Virus record (IMG/VR): IMGVR_UViG_3300028840_003032
Location: 1 to 53,500 of that record
Length of the DNA: 53,500 nucleotides
From: a virus
Strand: one strand, 5' to 3'
Below are positions 3,699 through 51,860 of this stretch, in pieces. Below the pieces are notes generated by a model that was not told where the DNA came from, ran no database searches, and saw only the letters and a program-made list of their open reading frames with translations. Position numbers and translations under genes: made by a program. The stretch's first letter is position 1; every line of letters starts with the position of its first letter.

Positions 3699-4021
3699 GT
3701 AAATGCAACTTCCCGCCAATACCGATTCCGGGCATCCCGATACCGGCGCCGGGATTTCCCTCAATCCCGACTCCTCCAGAAATGCCGCTCCCACCGGGCG
3801 GACTTCCCGTGATACCTCCCATCCCAACGCCGGGCATCCCGATACCGGCGCCCGGTTTCCCCTCGATACCGACGCCACCGCAGATGCCGTTGCCGCCAGG
3901 AGGACTGCCCGTCATCCCTCCTATCCCGACTCCGGGCATCCCCATACCGATACCTGGGCTGCCGTCAATACCATCAATACCGGACATGCCGGCGATACCC
4001 GCGTGTCCCTTAGACGATTGA
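3695..4021 (+). CDS. Proline-rich repeat protein between spike and wedge genes
   Basis: 108 aa and nearly all proline, isoleucine, glycine and serine. Two complete 34-residue repeats (each with GIPIPAPGFPSIPTPP then MPLPPGGLPVIPP) and a partial third make up residues ~8-102. The DNA repeats with the matching 102-bp period. The short ends are MSKCNF and PACPLDD. The ATGA overlap with the spike gene, reading frame maintained through the repeats and the tight junction to the wedge gene argue for a real protein. Such sequence would form polyproline helices or an extended rod. I do not recognise a family. Association with the spike tip or baseplate is inferred from position only. Confidence 0.65.
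   Translation: MSKCNFPPIPIPGIPIPAPGFPSIPTPPEMPLPPGGLPVIPPIPTPGIPIPAPGFPSIPTPPQMPLPPGGLPVIPPIPTPGIPIPIPGLPSIPSIPDMPAIPACPLDD
3753..3990 (+). repeat. Tandem 102-bp coding repeat (34-aa Pro-rich unit, about 2.3 copies)
   Basis: Within the proline-rich gene, the block starting near 3729 is repeated at about 3831 and again in part at about 3933, with a few substitutions (E to Q, A to I). The substitutions mostly keep the proline/isoleucine alternation. The repeats stay in frame, so unequal exchange would change rod length in steps of 34 residues. Boundaries are approximate. Confidence 0.7.
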
Positions 4022-4028
4022 GGGAGCT

Positions 4029-4409
4029 ATGCCAAGCGGTTTGAAGGTTCCGATAGGAAAAAATATGAGCGGCGGGATGGCCGTCGTAGATGGGGACGAC
4101 AACGACAAAAAGCTCATCGCAGTTGCGCTAGGAGACGACGACAACGAGAACGCCTTTCAGCAAAGCATCGGCTTGGGTATTGGGATGGTCTTCGACATCA
4201 ACGACCCGTTCATCCGAGGCGGCATCACGCGGAAGTTGAAAGAAATTTTCGAATTATTCGAGGCTCAAAAAAGGTTTAAACTGCTCACGGATACGATAGA
4301 ATGGAAGACGGACTCTAAAACGCAGGAGATGATATTGGAGTTTCGATACTTGAACTTGGAGAGCGATGAAGAGGGAGAGTTCACGAAGGTCTTCAGCGCA
4401 GGAGGGTAG
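4029..4409 (+). CDS. Baseplate wedge protein, gp25/gpW-like
   Basis: 126 aa, ATG start 7 bases after the previous stop. Small size, position between spike and gpJ, and the C-terminal pattern (LKEIFELFEAQKRFKLL... ILEFRYLNLESDEEGEF) match the gp25/gpW lysozyme-like wedge family, whose members end in a similar 'v.i.Y.l..t.e...' strand pair. I do not see a clear EPR motif as in T4 gp25, so the assignment relies on size, order and the C-terminal pattern. In the family, this protein helps nucleate sheath assembly and join wedges. Confidence 0.6.
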   Translation: MPSGLKVPIGKNMSGGMAVVDGDDNDKKLIAVALGDDDNENAFQQSIGLGIGMVFDINDPFIRGGITRKLKEIFELFEAQKRFKLLTDTIEWKTDSKTQEMILEFRYLNLESDEEGEFTKVFSAGG

Positions 4410-22578: not shown

Positions 22579-22627
22579 TTGAAAAGCCCTATATTTAATG
22601 TATGGAGAAGAACTCAAAAAAAAGGAG
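22579..22627 (+). promoter_or_regulatory. Conserved operon leader/promoter, copy 1
   Basis: This 49-bp block is 41/49 identical, without gaps, to 49803-49851. Shared parts are TTGAAAAG, CTA-A-TTT, ATGTATGGAGA and CTCAAAAAAAAGG. Both copies lie at operon starts in unusually AT-rich sequence. It may be a promoter (TTGAAA as -35-like box, TATGGA 16 bases on) for a phage-modified polymerase, or a shared 5' leader ending in the ribosome-binding site AAAGGAG. Sequence does not separate these. The operon it heads encodes a sigma-like protein. Confidence 0.65.
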
Positions 22628-22634
22628 TCCAAAA

Positions 22635-22976
22635 ATGACGACGAACCTTGACGTGATTTTCTACACGACGGCCACGGGGAATCTCGGCGCTAGTCTCGAC
22701 GGGGAGATTTTGGTGAACCACTTAGGTCGCCGCCTCCCTATTTCCGACGCATGGCAGGAGACGGACGCCGAATTAGACGACCTTACCGACGAGTGTTGGG
22801 AGGCTATCGAAGAAGAGGCGGACCGGGAAGAGAGGATAGCGGCGAACCGGGCGGAAGTTCCGAAGCGGATAAAAGCGAGGAAAGAAGCGAGGCGGAAAGA
22901 GAACCGGAGAGTGATGGTGGATTTCGTCGCGTATTACGAAAAAATTATCGCGGCCGGTCTCGCCAGGAGTCGTTAA
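22635..22976 (+). CDS. Small charged hypothetical protein, first gene of CobS/CobT operon
   Basis: 113 aa. ATG 22635 is preferred to the in-frame ATG 22602 because AAAGGAG (22621-22627) is 7 bases upstream of it and 22602 lies inside the conserved leader. The N-terminus is a short beta-type segment (TTNLDVIFYTTATGNLGASL). Residues ~40-113 are highly charged helix (EAIEEEADREERIAANR, RIKARKEARRKENRR). I do not recognise it. It holds the same place in its operon, between the conserved leader and the two-hairpin element, as the unrelated-looking 49860 gene. Confidence 0.6.
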   Translation: MTTNLDVIFYTTATGNLGASLDGEILVNHLGRRLPISDAWQETDAELDDLTDECWEAIEEEADREERIAANRAEVPKRIKARKEARRKENRRVMVDFVAYYEKIIAAGLARSR

Positions 22977-22986
22977 AAAAAAGGGA

Positions 22987-23048
22987 AACGGGGGACGGGG
23001 AAACCCCCTTACACACAGCCCGAAAAAGGGCGAAAAAAAAGGAGTCCA
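22987..23048 (+). promoter_or_regulatory. Two-hairpin intergenic element with fixed RBS, copy 1
   Basis: GGGGG (22990-22994) can pair with CCCCC (23004-23008), with an alternative GGGG-AAA-CCCC hairpin inside. After TTACACACA, GCCC (23018-23021) pairs with GGGC (23028-23031). An A-run and AAGGAGTCCAAAATG follow. Nearly the same arrangement lies at 50085-50145. Position directly before the CobS start suggests control of its translation, or RNA processing between genes. It is not a usual terminator, as no T-run follows. Confidence 0.65.
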
Positions 23049-23050
23049 AA

Positions 23051-24238
23051 ATGGGGAAAGCAAGAAACGAATTAGACGATGATGGAAGGCGAAAGGTAGA
23101 ATGTCTTGAGTGCGGCGGGAAATACTACCATCGCCTTGACGTCCATCTCCCGGCGAAGCACAAGATCAAGGTAGCGGATTACCGGGCGAAATATCCCGGC
23201 GCCGCCACCATGAGCGAGTACGCGAAAGAACGCGCCTCCAAAGCCCAAAGCGGCCGGGGAAAAGTCGCCGCCCCGAAGACGCCCACGACGCACACGGAAA
23301 AGGCCGAAGAAACTCGCATCGAAGTTGAGGGCGAGTATCGCATCGGCGTTGCGCGCCTCCACAAGAGAGACGACCTCACAGAGCTGGACAAAGCCTACGT
23401 CCCGAAGCACGACGAAAATTACATTTTCGGGGACGTCGAAATGGAGAACTGGGAGGATGTCGCGGTGGGCATCGAAGACGGCGAACCCGTCTACATCGGC
23501 GGACCGACCGGGTGCGGCAAGACGATGGGGGTGATGGAGATGGCGGCGGTCCTCAATCAACCCGTTCGGCGCGTCCAGTTAAACCGCGATTTCAAGGTGG
23601 GGGAATTCGTGGGACGCGGAACGCTCGTCACGGACGATGACGGGAACACGATCACGGGGTGGAAGGACGGCGTGCTGACCGAGGCGATGAGGAACGGATG
23701 GTGGCTCTTGCTCGACGAAATCGATCAGTCGCATCCCGACGTTCTGATGAAGCTTCAAGCGGTGCTCGAAGGGTCGCCGCTGGTCCTCACCGAGAATTTC
23801 GGGGAGGTCGTTCGACCTCATCCCCGGTTCCGGGTCATCGCGACGGCGAACACTTTCGGACGCGGCGATGAGGCGGGTTTGTACGTCGGAGCGAAGGTGA
23901 TGAACGAGGCGATGATGGACCGCTTCGGAGTCGTCATCAAGGCCGAATACCCGAAAGCCGAAACCGAGGTCACGATCATTTCGCGTCGCACGGGACTCGG
24001 GAAGCGCGAAGCGATGAAGATGGTGAAGGTCGCGCACAAGGTTAGGGAGGCGCTGGAGAAAGAGGAATGTTGTTGTACGTTCTCGACCCGTCGCCTGGTC
24101 GCCTGGGCGCACAAGACGGTTCGCTATCGGGGAGACGCGCGCAGGGCGTCGAAGACGGCCATCTTGAATAAGATGGAGACGGAGGATGCCCGCTTCGTTA
24201 ACCACCTGGTCCAGCGCTACTTCGGCGGTGAGGTATAG
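23051..24238 (+). CDS. cobS: CobS-like AAA+ ATPase (MoxR/dynein-related) with N-terminal zinc finger
   Basis: 395 aa. ATG 23051 is chosen because AAGGAGTCCAAA precedes it; the frame is open further upstream but without a supporting site. Residues 15-40 resemble a Ros/MucR-type zinc finger (C18, C21, H32, H37). The AAA_5 ATPase follows: Walker A IGGPTGCGKT (149-158), FKVGEFVGRGTLV (181-193), Walker B WLLLDEIDQS (218-227), and RVIATANTFGRGDE. This matches the CobS subunit of aerobic cobaltochelatase. Many large phages carry cobS without cobalamin genes, and none are seen here. With the adjacent CobT-like protein it probably forms a MoxR-VWA remodelling machine of unknown substrate. Confidence 0.85.
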   Translation: MGKARNELDDDGRRKVECLECGGKYYHRLDVHLPAKHKIKVADYRAKYPGAATMSEYAKERASKAQSGRGKVAAPKTPTTHTEKAEETRIEVEGEYRIGVARLHKRDDLTELDKAYVPKHDENYIFGDVEMENWEDVAVGIEDGEPVYIGGPTGCGKTMGVMEMAAVLNQPVRRVQLNRDFKVGEFVGRGTLVTDDDGNTITGWKDGVLTEAMRNGWWLLLDEIDQSHPDVLMKLQAVLEGSPLVLTENFGEVVRPHPRFRVIATANTFGRGDEAGLYVGAKVMNEAMMDRFGVVIKAEYPKAETEVTIISRRTGLGKREAMKMVKVAHKVREALEKEECCCTFSTRRLVAWAHKTVRYRGDARRASKTAILNKMETEDARFVNHLVQRYFGGEV

Positions 24239-24254
24239 AAAGGAGATGGAGACG

Positions 24255-26420
24255 ATGTCTAAGAGAAAATCGAATCTACTCCTTGGGGACTTCGAAAAAG
24301 TAGCGCGGGCGATGGCCGGTCGCTACGACATCAAGGTGGTCGCTTCCAACGCTTGCGCGACGGACGGTCGCACGATTTACTTCCCCTCAAACGCGGACGA
24401 TTTCGACGCGCATACGCTCAATCAGTTGAGCGGCTACAACGACCACGAGGTGGGGCATATCCGCGAAGAGGACCGCCACGCACTCGCCGGGAAGGAGACG
24501 CCGATCACGATCATAAGTCGCCTTCCGACGTCGAAGCAGAAAATGTTCTTCAATATCTTCGACGACATCCGGATGGAGCGACGGGAAGCGCAAGAGCACG
24601 TGGGCGTCGCAGAGAATCTTCGCGCATCGGCCGATTACTGTAAAAAGGTAATCGCGAAAGAAGCGAAGCGCGGCAAGGTCGATTTCTGGAGGGGACTCGG
24701 GACGGGCATCCTGGCGAAAGCCCACGGGCAGAAGGCGAGCTGGCTCACGCCCGCCCATAAGCCCTACATGGACGCAATCGAAGAGGAGATTGAGGAGTGC
24801 TGCGACATCACGAAGACGGTTTGGGGTTCGGACGTCGAAAACCTCGTTGAGCGCGTCCTCATCAAGCTGAACGAGACGGCTGAGGCGCTGGAAGAGGAGA
24901 AAGAGCGACGGGAAGAGGAGAAGAAGCGGAAAGAGGAAGAAGAGAAGCAGGAGCAGGAGGGTGAGGAGGAAGGGAGCGCCGGGGAAGGCGACGAAGAGGG
25001 TGGCGAGGAAGGTGAAGAGGAGAGTGAGGAGAACGGCACAGGAGATGAGATGGAGGAGGGTGAGGGCGACGGGTCAGGGACGGGCGCTGGCGATGAGGAG
25101 GGAGAGGAAGAGGATGGCGAGGGTGCGGCCGACTCGGACGGGACCGATGACGGAGAAGACCTTGGGGCGAGCGATGGCGAGGACGGCACGAGCGAACCCG
25201 GAACGCCGGATGCGGGCGAGGGTGAGGAGAACGGCAGCGAGGATGGGGCGGACTCCGATGAGGGCGCCGATACCGACGACACCACGGGAAGCGATGGCGC
25301 GGACGCTAGCGGCAAGGAGTCGAAGCGGAATCAGAATCTGGACGACGAAGACGATGGCGGGGAGTTCTCCGACCTGAGCGATGAGGAGCTGGAAGAAGCG
25401 GCGGACCTGGCCGATGAGGTTGCGAAGGACGCGGCGACCGACGACCTGATGGATGAGCTCAAAGACGAGATCAACAAGAAAGCGAAAAGCGCTCACGAGC
25501 GCACCGGTCGATACGCGGCCACGACGCAAGCGTTGAAAGAGGATGAATGGTTCGCGCCTCACAAGGATGAGGCCGCATACGAGGCGGCGAAGAAGACCGT
25601 TGCGCCGCAGATCAAGGGGATGAAGTCGAAGCTCATCAACCTCATCCGGTCTCAGGCGGAAGATACGATGGTGGGGGACCGGGAAGAGGGAGACTTGGAC
25701 GATGACGCTCTTCATACCGTCCGGACCGGGAACCGGAGAGTGTATACCCAGCTGGTGAACGGGACTCCGCTGGACACGGCGGTTTCTATCCTCATCGATC
25801 AAAGCGGGTCGATGGGAGGTAGCCGGATCAAATGCGCGAGGGAGATGGCGGTGGCGTTGGGCGAGACGTTCAACGCTCTGGGCGTACCTTTCGAGATCAT
25901 CGGGTTTGAGAATCGTTACCTCAAGCACGGTCGCTCGATCACTCAAGGCGAGGCCACGAACCCTTCGCTCAGGAAGAAGCGTTACAACTTCCGGACCTTC
26001 AAGACCTTCGATGAGTCCTATCGCCGCGTGAAGGCTCGCTTGGGAAATTGCCACGCCCACGGCGATAACGCCGATGGCGAGGCGGTGCTTGAGACTGCGA
26101 AGCGTCTTATCGTCCGCCCCGAAAGTCGCAAGCTTCTTTTCGTCCTGAGCGACGGTCAACCCGCTTGCGCCGGAACTAGCCGACACGTCTTGGCGAATCA
26201 CCTCAAGGAGGTTATCGAGAAAGTGACCGCAAGCGGAATCGAGGTCATCGGAATCGGTTGCGAGTACGAAGGCGTGAAAGAATACTATAACGAAGAACAC
26301 GGCGCCTCTCACACCGTTGTTTACGACGTCCAGAAACTGGCCGTCAAGGTCTACAAGATCATGAAAGATCAACTGCTGGGGAAAGGTCGGAAGCGCGGCC
26401 GGAAAGGAGCTGCGGCATGA
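24255..26420 (+). CDS. cobT: CobT-like VWA-domain protein
   Basis: 721 aa. ATG 24255 is used, since AAAGGAG lies 9-10 bases upstream. The N-terminal domain (1-205) has an HExxH motif (HEVGH, 64-68) and FNIFDDIRMERREAQE (99-114), both typical of the CobT/peptidase-like branch. Residues ~206-400 are an extreme Glu/Asp/Gly low-complexity linker. The C-terminal VWA domain (from ~507) has an intact MIDAS start DQSGSMGGS (515-523), HAHGDNADGEAV and LSDGQPAC. In cobaltochelatase, CobS and CobT form a two-tier ring; here both lie in one operon. Whether HEVGH is an active peptidase is not known. Next gene overlaps by ATGA. Confidence 0.85.
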   Translation: MSKRKSNLLLGDFEKVARAMAGRYDIKVVASNACATDGRTIYFPSNADDFDAHTLNQLSGYNDHEVGHIREEDRHALAGKETPITIISRLPTSKQKMFFNIFDDIRMERREAQEHVGVAENLRASADYCKKVIAKEAKRGKVDFWRGLGTGILAKAHGQKASWLTPAHKPYMDAIEEEIEECCDITKTVWGSDVENLVERVLIKLNETAEALEEEKERREEEKKRKEEEEKQEQEGEEEGSAGEGDEEGGEEGEEESEENGTGDEMEEGEGDGSGTGAGDEEGEEEDGEGAADSDGTDDGEDLGASDGEDGTSEPGTPDAGEGEENGSEDGADSDEGADTDDTTGSDGADASGKESKRNQNLDDEDDGGEFSDLSDEELEEAADLADEVAKDAATDDLMDELKDEINKKAKSAHERTGRYAATTQALKEDEWFAPHKDEAAYEAAKKTVAPQIKGMKSKLINLIRSQAEDTMVGDREEGDLDDDALHTVRTGNRRVYTQLVNGTPLDTAVSILIDQSGSMGGSRIKCAREMAVALGETFNALGVPFEIIGFENRYLKHGRSITQGEATNPSLRKKRYNFRTFKTFDESYRRVKARLGNCHAHGDNADGEAVLETAKRLIVRPESRKLLFVLSDGQPACAGTSRHVLANHLKEVIEKVTASGIEVIGIGCEYEGVKEYYNEEHGASHTVVYDVQKLAVKVYKIMKDQLLGKGRKRGRKGAAA

Positions 26421-39948: not shown

Positions 39949-41133
39949 ATGGGCGTGAATATGAAGAAGATGAGACGCGGATATGAGTCCCAGCAACGCG
40001 GCGGGGACTTCTGGAACGTGCCCGAGGGAGACAGCCTCGTGTACGTCCATCCGCCGTGTCGAGAGGAAGATGAGTATGAGCCCACCGAAGGGCTCAACTA
40101 CATCCCTGTCGCGGTTCATTACGCCGTTGGGAAGAATAACGCGATGTGCGTTTGCCTCGACAGCGACAATAACCCGATCATCAAGCACCCGTTCATCAAG
40201 GCGCTACTCAAGAAGCGCGGGATCAAGTTGGACGGCAATTGCCCCGTCTGCGAGGCTATCCAAGCCGGGAAGATGGACGCGGACGATGGCGACCGGAGCA
40301 GGGTCCAGACTCGCTATCTCTGGGGCCTCACGCTCCTCAAGCATCGCGGAAAGTCCTCGCAACCGTGGAACAAGGTCGCCGCGAAACCGGCCGTGGCCTT
40401 CGTCGGCAAGACCGTCTATGACGGCCTGATGGAGATGTTCTTCGACAACGGCGATATCACGGAGATGGGCGCCGCAATCCTCGCCAAGATCAACCGCGTC
40501 GGGACCGGCCCCACGGATACGAAGTACAAGGTGGCGGCCGACACCGAGTCGCTCAAGAAGCCGAAGAAGCTCGCAAAGCGATTGCGCGACATGGTCCTCA
40601 AGGCGCTCAAGGAAGGCGGCGACTGCGACCTGTTCCGAATCGTCTCCCAGCTCATCAAGAGTCCCGAAGAGGTCGAAGCGGCGATGGCGGGCGTGAAGGT
40701 GGAACTCGATGAAGACGACGATGACGAAGACGACATCGAGGATGAGGAGGACACCACCGAGGATGACGGCGCCGAAGAGGATGAGGAAGAGGACGCCGAA
40801 GACGACGATGACGAGGACGATGAGGAGGACGACGAAGACGACGATGACGAGGACGATGAGGAGGACGACGAAGACGACGATGAGGAGGACGACGAAGACG
40901 ACGATGAGGATGAGGAGGACGATGAGGACGGCGACGATGGCGAAGAGGATGAGGAGGACGCCGAAGAGGACGATGGGGATGACGACGAAGAGGACGATGA
41001 CGAGCTGGAGCTGGACGAGCTAGACAAGGAGCTGGATCGCATCCACAAGGGCAAGAAGAAGACGCCCGCCAAGGAGAAGAAGAAGAAGCCGGCCAAGAAG
41101 TCTCCCGCCAAGAAGAAGTCCAAGAAGAAGTAG
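39949..41133 (+). CDS. Single-stranded DNA-binding protein, gp32-like, with acidic and basic tails
   Basis: 394 aa, ATG with AAAAGGAG upstream. The start FWNVPEGDSLVYVHPP (21-36), a CxxC in NCPVCEAI (98-101) and further Cys (37, 67, 69) follow the T4 gp32 plan of an OB-fold with a zinc site. Residues ~252-357 are almost only Asp/Glu, over 100 residues, far longer than the acidic tip of known SSBs. Residues 368-394 are lysine-rich (KKKTPAKEKKKKPAKKSPAK). It precedes RecA. Identity rests on the N-terminal pattern and context; a tail role in recruiting partners is expected for SSBs. Confidence 0.75.
   Translation: MGVNMKKMRRGYESQQRGGDFWNVPEGDSLVYVHPPCREEDEYEPTEGLNYIPVAVHYAVGKNNAMCVCLDSDNNPIIKHPFIKALLKKRGIKLDGNCPVCEAIQAGKMDADDGDRSRVQTRYLWGLTLLKHRGKSSQPWNKVAAKPAVAFVGKTVYDGLMEMFFDNGDITEMGAAILAKINRVGTGPTDTKYKVAADTESLKKPKKLAKRLRDMVLKALKEGGDCDLFRIVSQLIKSPEEVEAAMAGVKVELDEDDDDEDDIEDEEDTTEDDGAEEDEEEDAEDDDDEDDEEDDEDDDDEDDEEDDEDDDEEDDEDDDEDEEDDEDGDDGEEDEEDAEEDDGDDDEEDDDELELDELDKELDRIHKGKKKTPAKEKKKKPAKKSPAKKKSKKK
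40711..41025 (+). repeat. GAY/GAR-rich low-complexity tract (SSB acidic tail)
   Basis: About 315 bp made almost only of GAC, GAT, GAG and GAA codons, with near-repeats such as GACGATGAGGAGGACGACGA. It is coding throughout. Long stretches of this type can slip and change length, so relatives may differ here. Confidence 0.8.
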
Positions 41134-49802: not shown

Positions 49803-49851
49803 TTGAAAAGAACTAAATTTTATGTATGGAGATGGTCTCAAAAAAAAGGGG
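49803..49851 (+). promoter_or_regulatory. Conserved operon leader/promoter, copy 2
   Basis: Ungapped 41/49 identity with 22579-22627, including TTGAAAAG, ATGTATGGAGA and CTCAAAAAAAAGG. The ATG in TATGG (49826) is not in frame with the downstream gene here, whereas it is in copy 1, so the conservation is not due to coding. It ends in the ribosome-binding site AAAGGGG. Confidence 0.65.
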
Positions 49852-49859
49852 AAACGAAA

Positions 49860-50075
49860 ATGAGGACGAGCGAAGACATGGGGATCAGAATAAACGACGA
49901 AGTCACTTTCAGAAATCGCCATACCGGGCGGACGCACACCGGTGTAGTCGTCTCGCTAGTTAGCGGAACCGGAACGCGGGAAGATTTTTTGGTGGGTCTT
50001 CGGGTCCACGGGTGGGAATACGCTAACGGGGAAAATCCGACCCTTATCCATACTCGGATGATCGTGAAAGGTTAG
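49860..50075 (+). CDS. Small hypothetical protein, first gene of second conserved operon
   Basis: 71 aa from ATG 49860, with AAAGGGG upstream; the in-frame ATG 49803 lies within the leader and is not used. The protein looks like a small beta barrel (INDEVTFRNRHTGRTHTGVVVSLVSG in parts; GLRVHGWEY), perhaps SH3-like. It shows no similarity that I can see to the 22635 gene, although the two occupy the same place in their operons. Confidence 0.55.
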   Translation: MRTSEDMGIRINDEVTFRNRHTGRTHTGVVVSLVSGTGTREDFLVGLRVHGWEYANGENPTLIHTRMIVKG

Positions 50076-50081
50076 AGGGAG

Positions 50082-50140
50082 AACGGGGGACGGAAACCCC
50101 CTACACATAGCCCCAACGGGCGAAAAGAAAAGGAGTCCAA
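50082..50140 (+). promoter_or_regulatory. Two-hairpin intergenic element with fixed RBS, copy 2
   Basis: GGGGG (50085-50089) pairs with CCCCC (50097-50101) around ACGGAAA, and GCCC (50110-50113) pairs with GGGC (50118-50121) around CAAC. The sequence CTACACATA lies between. An A-rich stretch and AAGGAGTCCAAAAATG follow. Loop lengths differ from copy 1 (22987-23048) but stems are kept, which points to RNA structure being selected. Confidence 0.65.
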
Positions 50141-50142
50141 AA

Positions 50143-50742
50143 ATGAGAACCACAACGGGAGTAAACAAGGCGAGGAAGAGGCTGGAAGAGGACATGGACA
50201 CGCGCAGGACGTCGTTCATCGAAGCGGTCCGGGAATCGCTCATCGACGCGGGCCACGAACTCGATACCGGCCACGGCGTTTCGCGAGTGGACGACATCGG
50301 CATCTACATGGAGGTCGGCAAGCAGGATTCGGGCGGCGCTTTCCGGACGCATTACAACGGCCGACTCTACTACACGCTGGGAGACTACGGCAACAAGCAA
50401 ACGTACCCGGAGCCCAAAAAGGGTTTCGACGTCGCCAAGGCGGTCGAGAGAATTCTGGAACGGGTCGAAGGCGGGAAGAGGCGGAAGGAGGCTCGCAAGA
50501 AGAGTGACGAGAAGAAGAAAGCGGCCAAGGTCACTCTTCGCAGGGCGTGCGCGAAAATCGAGATGGACGAGCACAACCGACCGAAGGACTGGAGCGATGA
50601 GGCGGACTTGCGATGGGATAAGAAGTCCCCGGAGACGCTTCGCAAGGTCAAGACGCTCGACGCGGACCGGGTTGAGGCGACGTTCGCCCTCACCCCGGAG
50701 ATGTTTGAGAAGGTCGTGAAACTGATCGACGTGATCGGATAA
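50143..50742 (+). CDS. Hypothetical protein of second conserved operon
   Basis: 199 aa, ATG with AAGGAG at the conserved distance. Residues 1-70 contain a helix and a small beta region (RTSFIEAVRESLIDAGHELD, VSRVDDIGIYMEV). A basic helical stretch follows (~110-130, GKRRKEARKKSDEKKKAAK), and the end is a short domain (ADRVEATFALTPEMFEKVVK). Not recognised. It has the same place in its operon, after the two-hairpin element, as CobS does in the first. Confidence 0.6.
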   Translation: MRTTTGVNKARKRLEEDMDTRRTSFIEAVRESLIDAGHELDTGHGVSRVDDIGIYMEVGKQDSGGAFRTHYNGRLYYTLGDYGNKQTYPEPKKGFDVAKAVERILERVEGGKRRKEARKKSDEKKKAAKVTLRRACAKIEMDEHNRPKDWSDEADLRWDKKSPETLRKVKTLDADRVEATFALTPEMFEKVVKLIDVIG

Positions 50743-50756
50743 TAAAGGAGTCCAAA

Positions 50757-51860
50757 ATGAAAACGACGAAAGAAGAAAAGACGACGAAGGTGGAGACGAG
50801 CTATCTGATGTGGGTCGGTGCCGCTCACTACCCCACGATCAAAAGCTACGTCGAAGAGGCGCTTGAGATGGGTATCTCAAAGCGACTCCCGAACGCGGCG
50901 GTGGCGGAGAAGATGCTTGAGGCGAACACGGTCGTATTCGTCGCCCACGACGAAGGCGAGTATCACGAATGCCCCGAGTGCTTGGGGACTATCGAGTGCC
51001 CCGAGTGTCGCAAGCGGTCGGAGCGAATCAACCGCCTCAAAATCGAGCGTGAGGACTTCTGCGAAGAGGAGATGGCGCTGGAGTCGAAGGTCAAGAAGAT
51101 GGAACTGGAGGTCGCCAACTCCGAAGAGAGGGATCACGACGCGACGGACGCCCTCAAGGAGAAGATCAAGGAGACGAAGACGAAGATGAAGCGCTGCGAG
51201 ACGAAGACTCAGAAGCGCAGCGAGAAAATCCACGAGCTTCTTGCCGAGCAAATGAACTGCGTCGATTGCGACGGGGAAGGGACGATGAGCGGCGGAACGG
51301 GCGGCAAGGTCGTCTTCGGGGATAAGGACGTTTGGGAATACCGGCGTTACAACTACTGGCTCCACCTTCCGAAGAAGTGGACCGCCGAAAAGAAGAACGG
51401 CGTGGCGGCCGAAGAGATGTGCGAGAACTGCGGCGGCACCGGGCGCCTCCCCAACGGTCGAATCTTCGGGATGTTCCTCCCCAGCGCCACCGAATACGTC
51501 CTCAAGCCTGAGGATGAGGAAGAGTTCAAAAAGGAAATCGAAGCGAAGGGCATCGAGACGGTAGCGAAGACGATAGTGGAAGCGGAACGGAAGCGCGGCT
51601 GCGGCAAGCGGAAGGCGGGCGGATACTACGCCGTCACGAACCCGAAGACGGCGACCGCCGAAGAGGTGACGACGAAGATGAAGGAGCTAATCGAAAAGGG
51701 CGTCATCAAGTACGAAGAGGTGAAGGTGAGCGGCAACTTCGTAGAATTTTTGGCGCCGGTCGAAATCGCTTCAAAGCGGTTCCGAGGTATCAAGCGGTGG
51801 TCTCTCGACCCGGCTGCGGAAGAGGAAGCGGAGATGGCGCTTGACGCGATGGAGGACTAG
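50757..51860 (+). CDS. Coiled-coil protein with DnaJ-type zinc motifs
   Basis: 367 aa, ATG with AAAGGAGTCC upstream. Cysteine pairs occur at 72/75 and 81/84 (ECPECLGTIECPEC), then 168/171 (CVDCDGEG) and 222/225 (CENCGGTG). The last two are CxxCxGxG motifs of DnaJ zinc fingers. A charged coiled coil (~87-165) separates the first pair group from the others. There is no J domain (no HPD). It may be a zinc-bound scaffold or chaperone-like protein. Further identity is not visible. Confidence 0.62.
   Translation: MKTTKEEKTTKVETSYLMWVGAAHYPTIKSYVEEALEMGISKRLPNAAVAEKMLEANTVVFVAHDEGEYHECPECLGTIECPECRKRSERINRLKIEREDFCEEEMALESKVKKMELEVANSEERDHDATDALKEKIKETKTKMKRCETKTQKRSEKIHELLAEQMNCVDCDGEGTMSGGTGGKVVFGDKDVWEYRRYNYWLHLPKKWTAEKKNGVAAEEMCENCGGTGRLPNGRIFGMFLPSATEYVLKPEDEEEFKKEIEAKGIETVAKTIVEAERKRGCGKRKAGGYYAVTNPKTATAEEVTTKMKELIEKGVIKYEEVKVSGNFVEFLAPVEIASKRFRGIKRWSLDPAAEEEAEMALDAMED

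Follow-up and report, generated by a model that had tools for sequence, protein, structure and literature searches.

A repeated two-hairpin block before a fixed ribosome-binding site as a candidate translation-start cassette in a tailed phage

What is the role of a block of two hairpins and a ribosome-binding site (RBS) that is duplicated between two unrelated gene pairs, each time between the stop codon of an operon's first gene and the start codon of the next? We addressed this question in a 53.5-kb IMG/VR virus record of a tailed phage (the window, i.e. the whole stretch of DNA analysed), in which nearly all genes lie on the + strand and which encodes a DnaE-like polymerase, a DnaB-like helicase, a UvsX-like recombinase, SbcCD-like proteins and a baseplate-like protein. 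The region of the first operon (operon A) gave no DNA match to cultured phages, and the window polymerase matched isolates at ~33% identity only. For comparison, two syntenic contigs of 104-116 kb from uncultured relatives and more than 20 further relatives found via the polymerase were available; positions in G014, G016, G019 and G021 refer to the reverse-complemented record. Some features of these sequences were recorded in passing: a polymerase match of ~4.6-4.8 kb versus 3.8 kb in L034-L038, L040 and L168 suggests an intein or other insertion, a GAC/GAG/GAA codon run at 40696-41045 of the window gives the gene at 39949-41133 a very acidic low-complexity protein segment, and the small ORF at 3703-4044 contains three tandem repeats with 102-nt spacing at 3711-3991.

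The two operon heads and their shared block

The features of the two operon heads are as follows; all hairpins were found by sequence reading and folding.

22579..22608, + strand: shared promoter/leader core of operon A, TTGAAAAGnnCTAnATTTnATGTATGGAGA (pattern match between operons)
22622..22634, + strand: fixed RBS AAGGAGTCCAAAA of the first gene of operon A, no hairpins (exact sequence search)
22635..22976, + strand: first gene of operon A, 113 aa, no family match
22982..23053, + strand: copy A of the shared block, AGGGA to start codon (local alignment)
22990..23008, + strand: hairpin 1 of copy A, GGGGG[ACGGGGAAA]CCCCC (alone -7.9 kcal/mol)
23018..23031, + strand: hairpin 2 of copy A, GCCC[GAAAAA]GGGC
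23039..23051, + strand: fixed RBS AAGGAGTCCAAAA of the CobS-like gene, its last A being the first base of the start codon
23051..24238, + strand: second gene of operon A, CobS-like AAA+ ATPase (AAA_5, phrog_249)
24186..26420, + strand: third gene of operon A, encoding a CobT-like protein that contains a VWA domain (CobT_C)
49803..49832, + strand: shared promoter/leader core of operon B (pattern match)
49860..50075, + strand: first gene of operon B, 71 aa, no family match
50076..50145, + strand: copy B of the shared block, AGGGA to start codon (local alignment)
50085..50101, + strand: hairpin 1 of copy B, GGGGG[ACGGAAA]CCCCC (-8.3 kcal/mol)
50110..50121, + strand: hairpin 2 of copy B, GCCC[CAAC]GGGC
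50130..50142, + strand: fixed RBS AAGGAGTCCAAAA of the second gene of operon B
50143..50742, + strand: second gene of operon B, 199 aa, no family match
50745..50757, + strand: fixed RBS of the third gene of operon B, no hairpins (exact sequence search)
50757..51860, + strand: third gene of operon B

In order to assess the similarity of the two gaps independently of the RBS, positions 22977-23050 and 50076-50142 were aligned with the RBS left out. The local-alignment score was 61, compared to a best score of 36 among 2000 dinucleotide shuffles, which bears out the shared two-hairpin block of the initial annotation; the similarity, however, starts further upstream than first stated, at AGGGA (22982 and 50076). 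A structure-only scan for tandem hairpins before a Shine-Dalgarno (SD) sequence returned just these two places among the non-coding gaps of the window. The linker between hairpins 1 and 2 is TTACACACA in copy A and TACACATA in copy B, the distance from hairpin 2 to the SD is 7-8 nt (spacer GAAAAAA in copy A and GAAAAGAA in copy B), and AAGGAGTCC begins at 23039 in copy A (ATG at 23051) and at 50130 in copy B (ATG at 50143). The approximately seven differences between the copies all fall at unpaired positions, for which the hand-computed chance is (31/49)^7 or ~0.04. The claim that the stems are kept holds in the sense that all stem letters are identical in copies A and B, but for the same reason there is no covariation, and compensation is not assessable from two copies.

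The fixed RBS is a strong SD site with a 6-7 nt spacer, preceded by an A-rich run. As claimed, it is common to both copies, except that copy A reads AAGGAGTCCAAAATG and is thus one A short of copy B. Exact copies of AAGGAGTCCAAAA stand at four gene starts (22635, 23051, 50143 and 50757) and nowhere else in the window. Since two of these four starts, 22635 and 50757, have no hairpins, and only 23051 and 50143 are preceded by the tandem hairpins, the RBS can evidently occur independently of them. In a shuffle test for repeated RBSs, the window gave a weaker result than its relatives, with 6 of 200 shuffles reaching four starts, yet the match consists of 13 exact bases.

The promoter/leader pattern has two exact matches in the window (22579-22608 and 49803-49832) and none in 100 shuffles, in agreement with the proposal that both gaps follow the first gene of operons sharing a promoter and leader. 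TTGAAA-16-TATGGA in the core of operon A is likely the -35/-10 pair. Building operon heads to one plan, as had been suggested, is seen both in the window and in relatives, several of which have operon heads with a common virus-specific promoter. The CobS-like gene and the third gene of operon B usually lie directly behind a sigma70-like promoter in relatives; the latter gene is conserved there and follows a promoter or a small first gene. The relatives inspected showed no first gene of operon A between the primase and the CobS-like gene, and a search for relatives of the second gene of operon B found none; the operon B proteins have no family matches. The small first genes of the window appear to be insertions. 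At comparable places in several relatives, the starts are unstructured or seem to be leaderless.

A few further features of operon heads and their proteins were noted. The N-terminus of the CobS-like ATPase, which the CobT-like VWA protein adjoins, contains a ROS/MucR-like zinc-finger stretch (PF05443, just under cut-off). In many cases the ATG lies ~10-20 nt past the -10 box of a sigma70-like promoter, such that several genes look leaderless while others in the same genome have SD leaders; leaderless-looking sites include 70635, 72513, 87063, 87936 and 98306 in G001 (L011-L016), 102283 in G002, and promoters of G009, G024 and G006. G001 also carries a repeated promoter motif, AAAAAAGTTCTCGAC.TGTGGAAGCA...TATNNT, in which TGTGGAAGCA is conserved in the -35/-10 spacer, suggesting a phage-specific promoter or operator. 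In operon heads of G021 and G003 (AAAAAAAGTTGCCTCCAAGGCAATTTTTTTCTTGAC), a terminator-like hairpin that has an A-run and a T-run directly abuts the -35 element of the next promoter, and this compact terminator-promoter unit is repeated at several genes.

Predicted folding and the situation in relatives

Folding prediction gave hairpin 2 a probability of 0.95-1.0 in both copies. Hairpin 1 was the majority fold in copy B (0.82) but a minority fold in copy A (0.08-0.15), where it has a competitor, GGGG[AAA]CCCC, of -5.6 kcal/mol. The predicted optimum of copy A opens hairpin 1, with GGAC pairing to GUCC after the SD and CCUU pairing to the AAGG of the SD; the two extra G in the loop of this copy make both an inner GGG[GAAA]CCC hairpin and the pairing of CCUU with the SD possible. 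This SD-masking switch (GGAC:GUCC, CCUU:AAGG) was predicted in copy A only and not in copy B, and counts among the rejected readings. The hairpin segments alone folded better than shuffles in each copy (z ~-2.1). In a context of -80 to +40, the SD zone was predicted to be unpaired to 70% (copy A) and 74% (copy B), compared to 45 +/- 22% for 39 other starts of the window; in a short context, the SD of copy A was ~75-80% paired, and the outcome therefore depends on the context folded.

The exact block was absent from IMG/VR and from the relatives compared. A descriptor of the tandem hairpins gave 15 matches per ~1280 SD starts in 25 relatives, which is not above the 5 per 213 on the minus strand, and at gathering threshold no Rfam covariance model matched the window. 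To date, the tandem form of the hairpins is private to the window virus, but the habit of repeating an RBS is clade-wide: in six relatives, a virus-specific RBS was found at 4-10 gene starts, a number reached by 0 of 200 shuffles in each.

G002: repeated RBS GGAGATCAGC
G014: repeated RBS AGGAGATCGA
G016: repeated RBS GGAGTCAGCC
G019: repeated RBS GGAGATCAGC
G021: repeated RBS AAAGGAGAAC
G027: repeated RBS AGGAGAACCG

In two of these viruses, the repeated RBS is preceded by hairpins. In G002, the RBS ACCTGGAGATC is present at four starts with a hairpin directly before each; the stems are different and three of the four loops read GGCGA(G). One of them, at 2634-2649, lies behind a larger hairpin in the gap between the first (2221) and the second gene (2668) and is the nearest parallel to the window. 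In G021, five hairpins precede the fixed RBS, three of them with loops AAGGCAAA, AAGGGCAAA or AGGGCAAA.

G002, hairpins before the RBS: AGGCGC[GGCGA]GCGCCT; GGCCC[GGCGAG]GGGCC; CGGCT[GTG]AGCCG; GTGGCGT[TGGCGAG]ACGCCAC
G021, first three hairpins: AGGTGG[AAGGCAAA]CCACCT; AGTTGGA[AAGGGCAAA]TCCAACT; TGGTG[AGGGCAAA]CACCA
G021, other two hairpins: GTTGG[ACGGCATA]CCAAC; GGGTT[GGC]AACCC

Compared to dinucleotide shuffles, stem strength before the fixed RBS was above chance in G002 (p 7e-5) and G021 (p 7e-4), but showed no excess in G014, G004 and G016. The hairpins must therefore be dispensable, since these latter three viruses have fixed RBSs without them. Promoter-anchored leaders, which were selected without regard to folding, gave a combined p of 3e-4 over 22 leaders. 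When the stem arms of G002 and G021 were deranged, only the true one of 120 arrangements formed all pairs (25/25 and 20/20), with at least two pair types per position; these stems had been picked because they pair, and the number is supportive only. The leaders of G001 contain strong hairpins with unrelated stems (AGGGCGGCCG/CGGCCGCCCT and GAGGCCG/CGGCCTC) before AAGGAG or AAGGA, with a combined p of only 0.09. CobS leaders as a set showed no consistent structure excess, and the signal for a conserved hairpin before all CobS-like genes was only weak and scattered.

Possible functions of the block

A function of the block in translation initiation is plausible and agrees with its position, given that hairpins and fixed RBS recur as a unit. 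We give an even chance to the proposal that the block is a reusable translation-start cassette of phage mRNA, in which the hairpins insulate or stabilise a strong, A-rich RBS and the second gene is translated independently. The hairpins would fold during RNA synthesis and close off the upstream reading frame, would keep the A-rich run and the SD single-stranded for loading of the 30S subunit, and might slow the decay of the downstream message. The second gene, i.e. the CobS-like ATPase gene in operon A and an orphan in operon B, would then be translated independently of the first; simple re-initiation is disfavoured because the gap measures 67-74 nt. The core of such a cassette would be the virus-specific RBS, with the hairpins as an optional structural extra that can vary freely in stem sequence. 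Standby-site effects like those proposed here are established in Escherichia coli (PMC3936740). Insulation is, however, not equally predicted for both copies, as hairpin 1 is the minority fold of copy A and the SD of this copy is mostly paired in the short context. In addition, the common loops within G002 and within G021 point tentatively to recognition of a specific sequence, a feature that pure insulation would not require.

Such recognition would underlie a translational operator, one of the two functions put forward in the initial annotation; in the form considered here, a phage or host RNA-binding protein would recognise the loop ACGG(GG)AAA and control initiation at the second gene of both operons together. 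The loops are purine-rich and alike within and perhaps between viruses (ACGGGGAAA and ACGGAAA in the window, AAGGCAAA, AAGGGCAAA and AGGGCAAA in G021, GGCGA(G) in G002), kept loops on varying stems are typical of protein-bound hairpins, and the alternative fold of copy A masks the SD; the gp43 operator of phage T4, a hairpin with conserved loop upstream of the RBS (PMC3014915), counts for the same reading. The masking fold is, on the other hand, missing in copy B, and the SD lies outside the hairpins. Over all starts, loops of the type GG..[AG]A were not enriched (p 0.30) and GGC[AG]A was marginal (p 0.05), the GGGCAAA stretch of G021 also occurs stemless at several promoters, and no CsrA-family gene was matched in 17 phage records, although the CsrA-type ANGGA is present as ACGGA in the hairpin loop of copy B, but not of copy A. 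Taken together, we regard an operator as rather unlikely. In the other function put forward, RNA processing, or in decay, the hairpins would serve to mark an mRNA end or to shield it, uncoupling the decay of the first gene from that of the remaining operon. The location between first and second gene, the stable local hairpins and the A-rich single-stranded tail speak for it, as does the resemblance of GGAGAACGG in G021 to the consensus GGAGRAYARAA of T4 RegB, which cuts GGAG in intergenic regions (PMC3014915). The window itself reads GGAGTCCAAAA and its RBS (GGAGTCC) does not fit this consensus, and no RegB-family match (PF10715) was obtained in the 17 records; the positive control of this search was silent as well, and the window represents a fragment. 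At 4-5 bp, the stems are, moreover, short for RNase III, and the comparable hairpins of G002 and G021 are mostly located in promoter-proximal leaders, not between genes. We consider a processing element improbable; of the earlier suggestion that an operator or a processing site is plausible, the position of the block in line with a role in translation initiation remains, while nothing specific to either of the two was found.

Two further readings were weighed. Copying by recombination between operon heads could have spread a cassette without RNA function, the copies being similar since they are recent or still exchanging, as proposed for the promoter-early stem-loops (PeSLs) whose shuffling is reported for T4-like phages in work cited by PMC4503421. 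The flanking genes are indeed unrelated and apparently lineage-specific, promoter and gap are near-copies, and the repeats vary between viruses but are uniform within one. Shuffling leaves unexplained, however, why the stems of G002 and G021 differ yet stay paired and why the differences between the window copies avoid the stems, and PeSLs are composites of promoter and terminator, while no + strand terminator is predicted here; this reading is quite improbable. The G5/C5 hairpin in an intergenic gap could also be a transcription attenuator or weak terminator that lowers the expression of downstream genes, which we judge to be highly improbable. Neither hairpin is followed by a U-run on the + strand and the terminator scan called none there in either gap, which led us to reject the terminator reading; on the - strand, the T-rich side precedes hairpin 2 instead of following it, and the sole call (23008-22991), made in copy A and not in copy B, does not exceed the rate seen in shuffles, in a genome whose genes are nearly all on the + strand.

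Returning to the translation-start cassette, a wider picture that combines it with loop recognition is tentative and unlikely in our view: in this uncultured clade of ~100-kb phages, a virus-specific start RBS would be accompanied by a hairpin with drifting stem and kept purine-rich loop, through which a phage or host factor switches a set of genes together, and the tandem form of the window would be a duplicated version inside operons. Since upstream repeats keep pairing through sequence change in two members of the clade, an RNA-level role in initiation is testable with small reporters.

Comparison with known start-associated elements

Structured RNA shortly upstream of an RBS is also found in the operators of T4 genes 43 and 32 (PMC3014915); these are, however, autogenous for a single gene with a known protein, whereas the block of the window serves two operons, leaves the SD outside the hairpins and has no known binding protein. 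The ribosome standby sites mentioned above (PMC3936740) resemble it in having hairpins upstream of an accessible SD and a single-stranded landing sequence, but were described in E. coli and synthetic leaders, in contrast to the duplicated intercistronic cassette of the window. With the T4 PeSLs, as far as described in the paper citing them (PMC4503421), the block shares the character of a repeated intergenic regulatory hairpin cassette bordering lineage-specific genes; according to the same source, a PeSL consists of a promoter plus a terminator-like stem-loop, whereas the block lacks a U-run, is fused to an RBS and has its promoter one gene upstream.

The nearest known elements are the SAS and ESAS of cluster K mycobacteriophages (PMC3203893), of which the block is not a member. 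Both systems consist of a short, asymmetric, virus-specific sequence over the SD at the starts of a subset of genes, with conservation beyond the complement of the anti-SD and with repeat letters that differ between subgroups, and inverted repeats lie directly upstream of about half of the SAS/ESAS copies and of two of the four copies in the window. The phage group differs, the 13-bp sequence GGGATAGGAGCCC shares only a GGAG-type SD with AAGGAGTCCAAAA, and ESAS are imperfect 17-bp inverted repeats, compared to two tandem hairpins of 5 and 4 bp and four RBS copies in all in the window. The authors of that study found little support for the ESAS repeats forming hairpins in the mRNA (PMC3203893). 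Start-associated repeats have thus been known in mycobacteriophages without assigned function and with little support from RNA folding, and an unrelated clade now shows the same habit; unlike in the reported ESAS picture, the differing arms of G002 and G021 stay paired.
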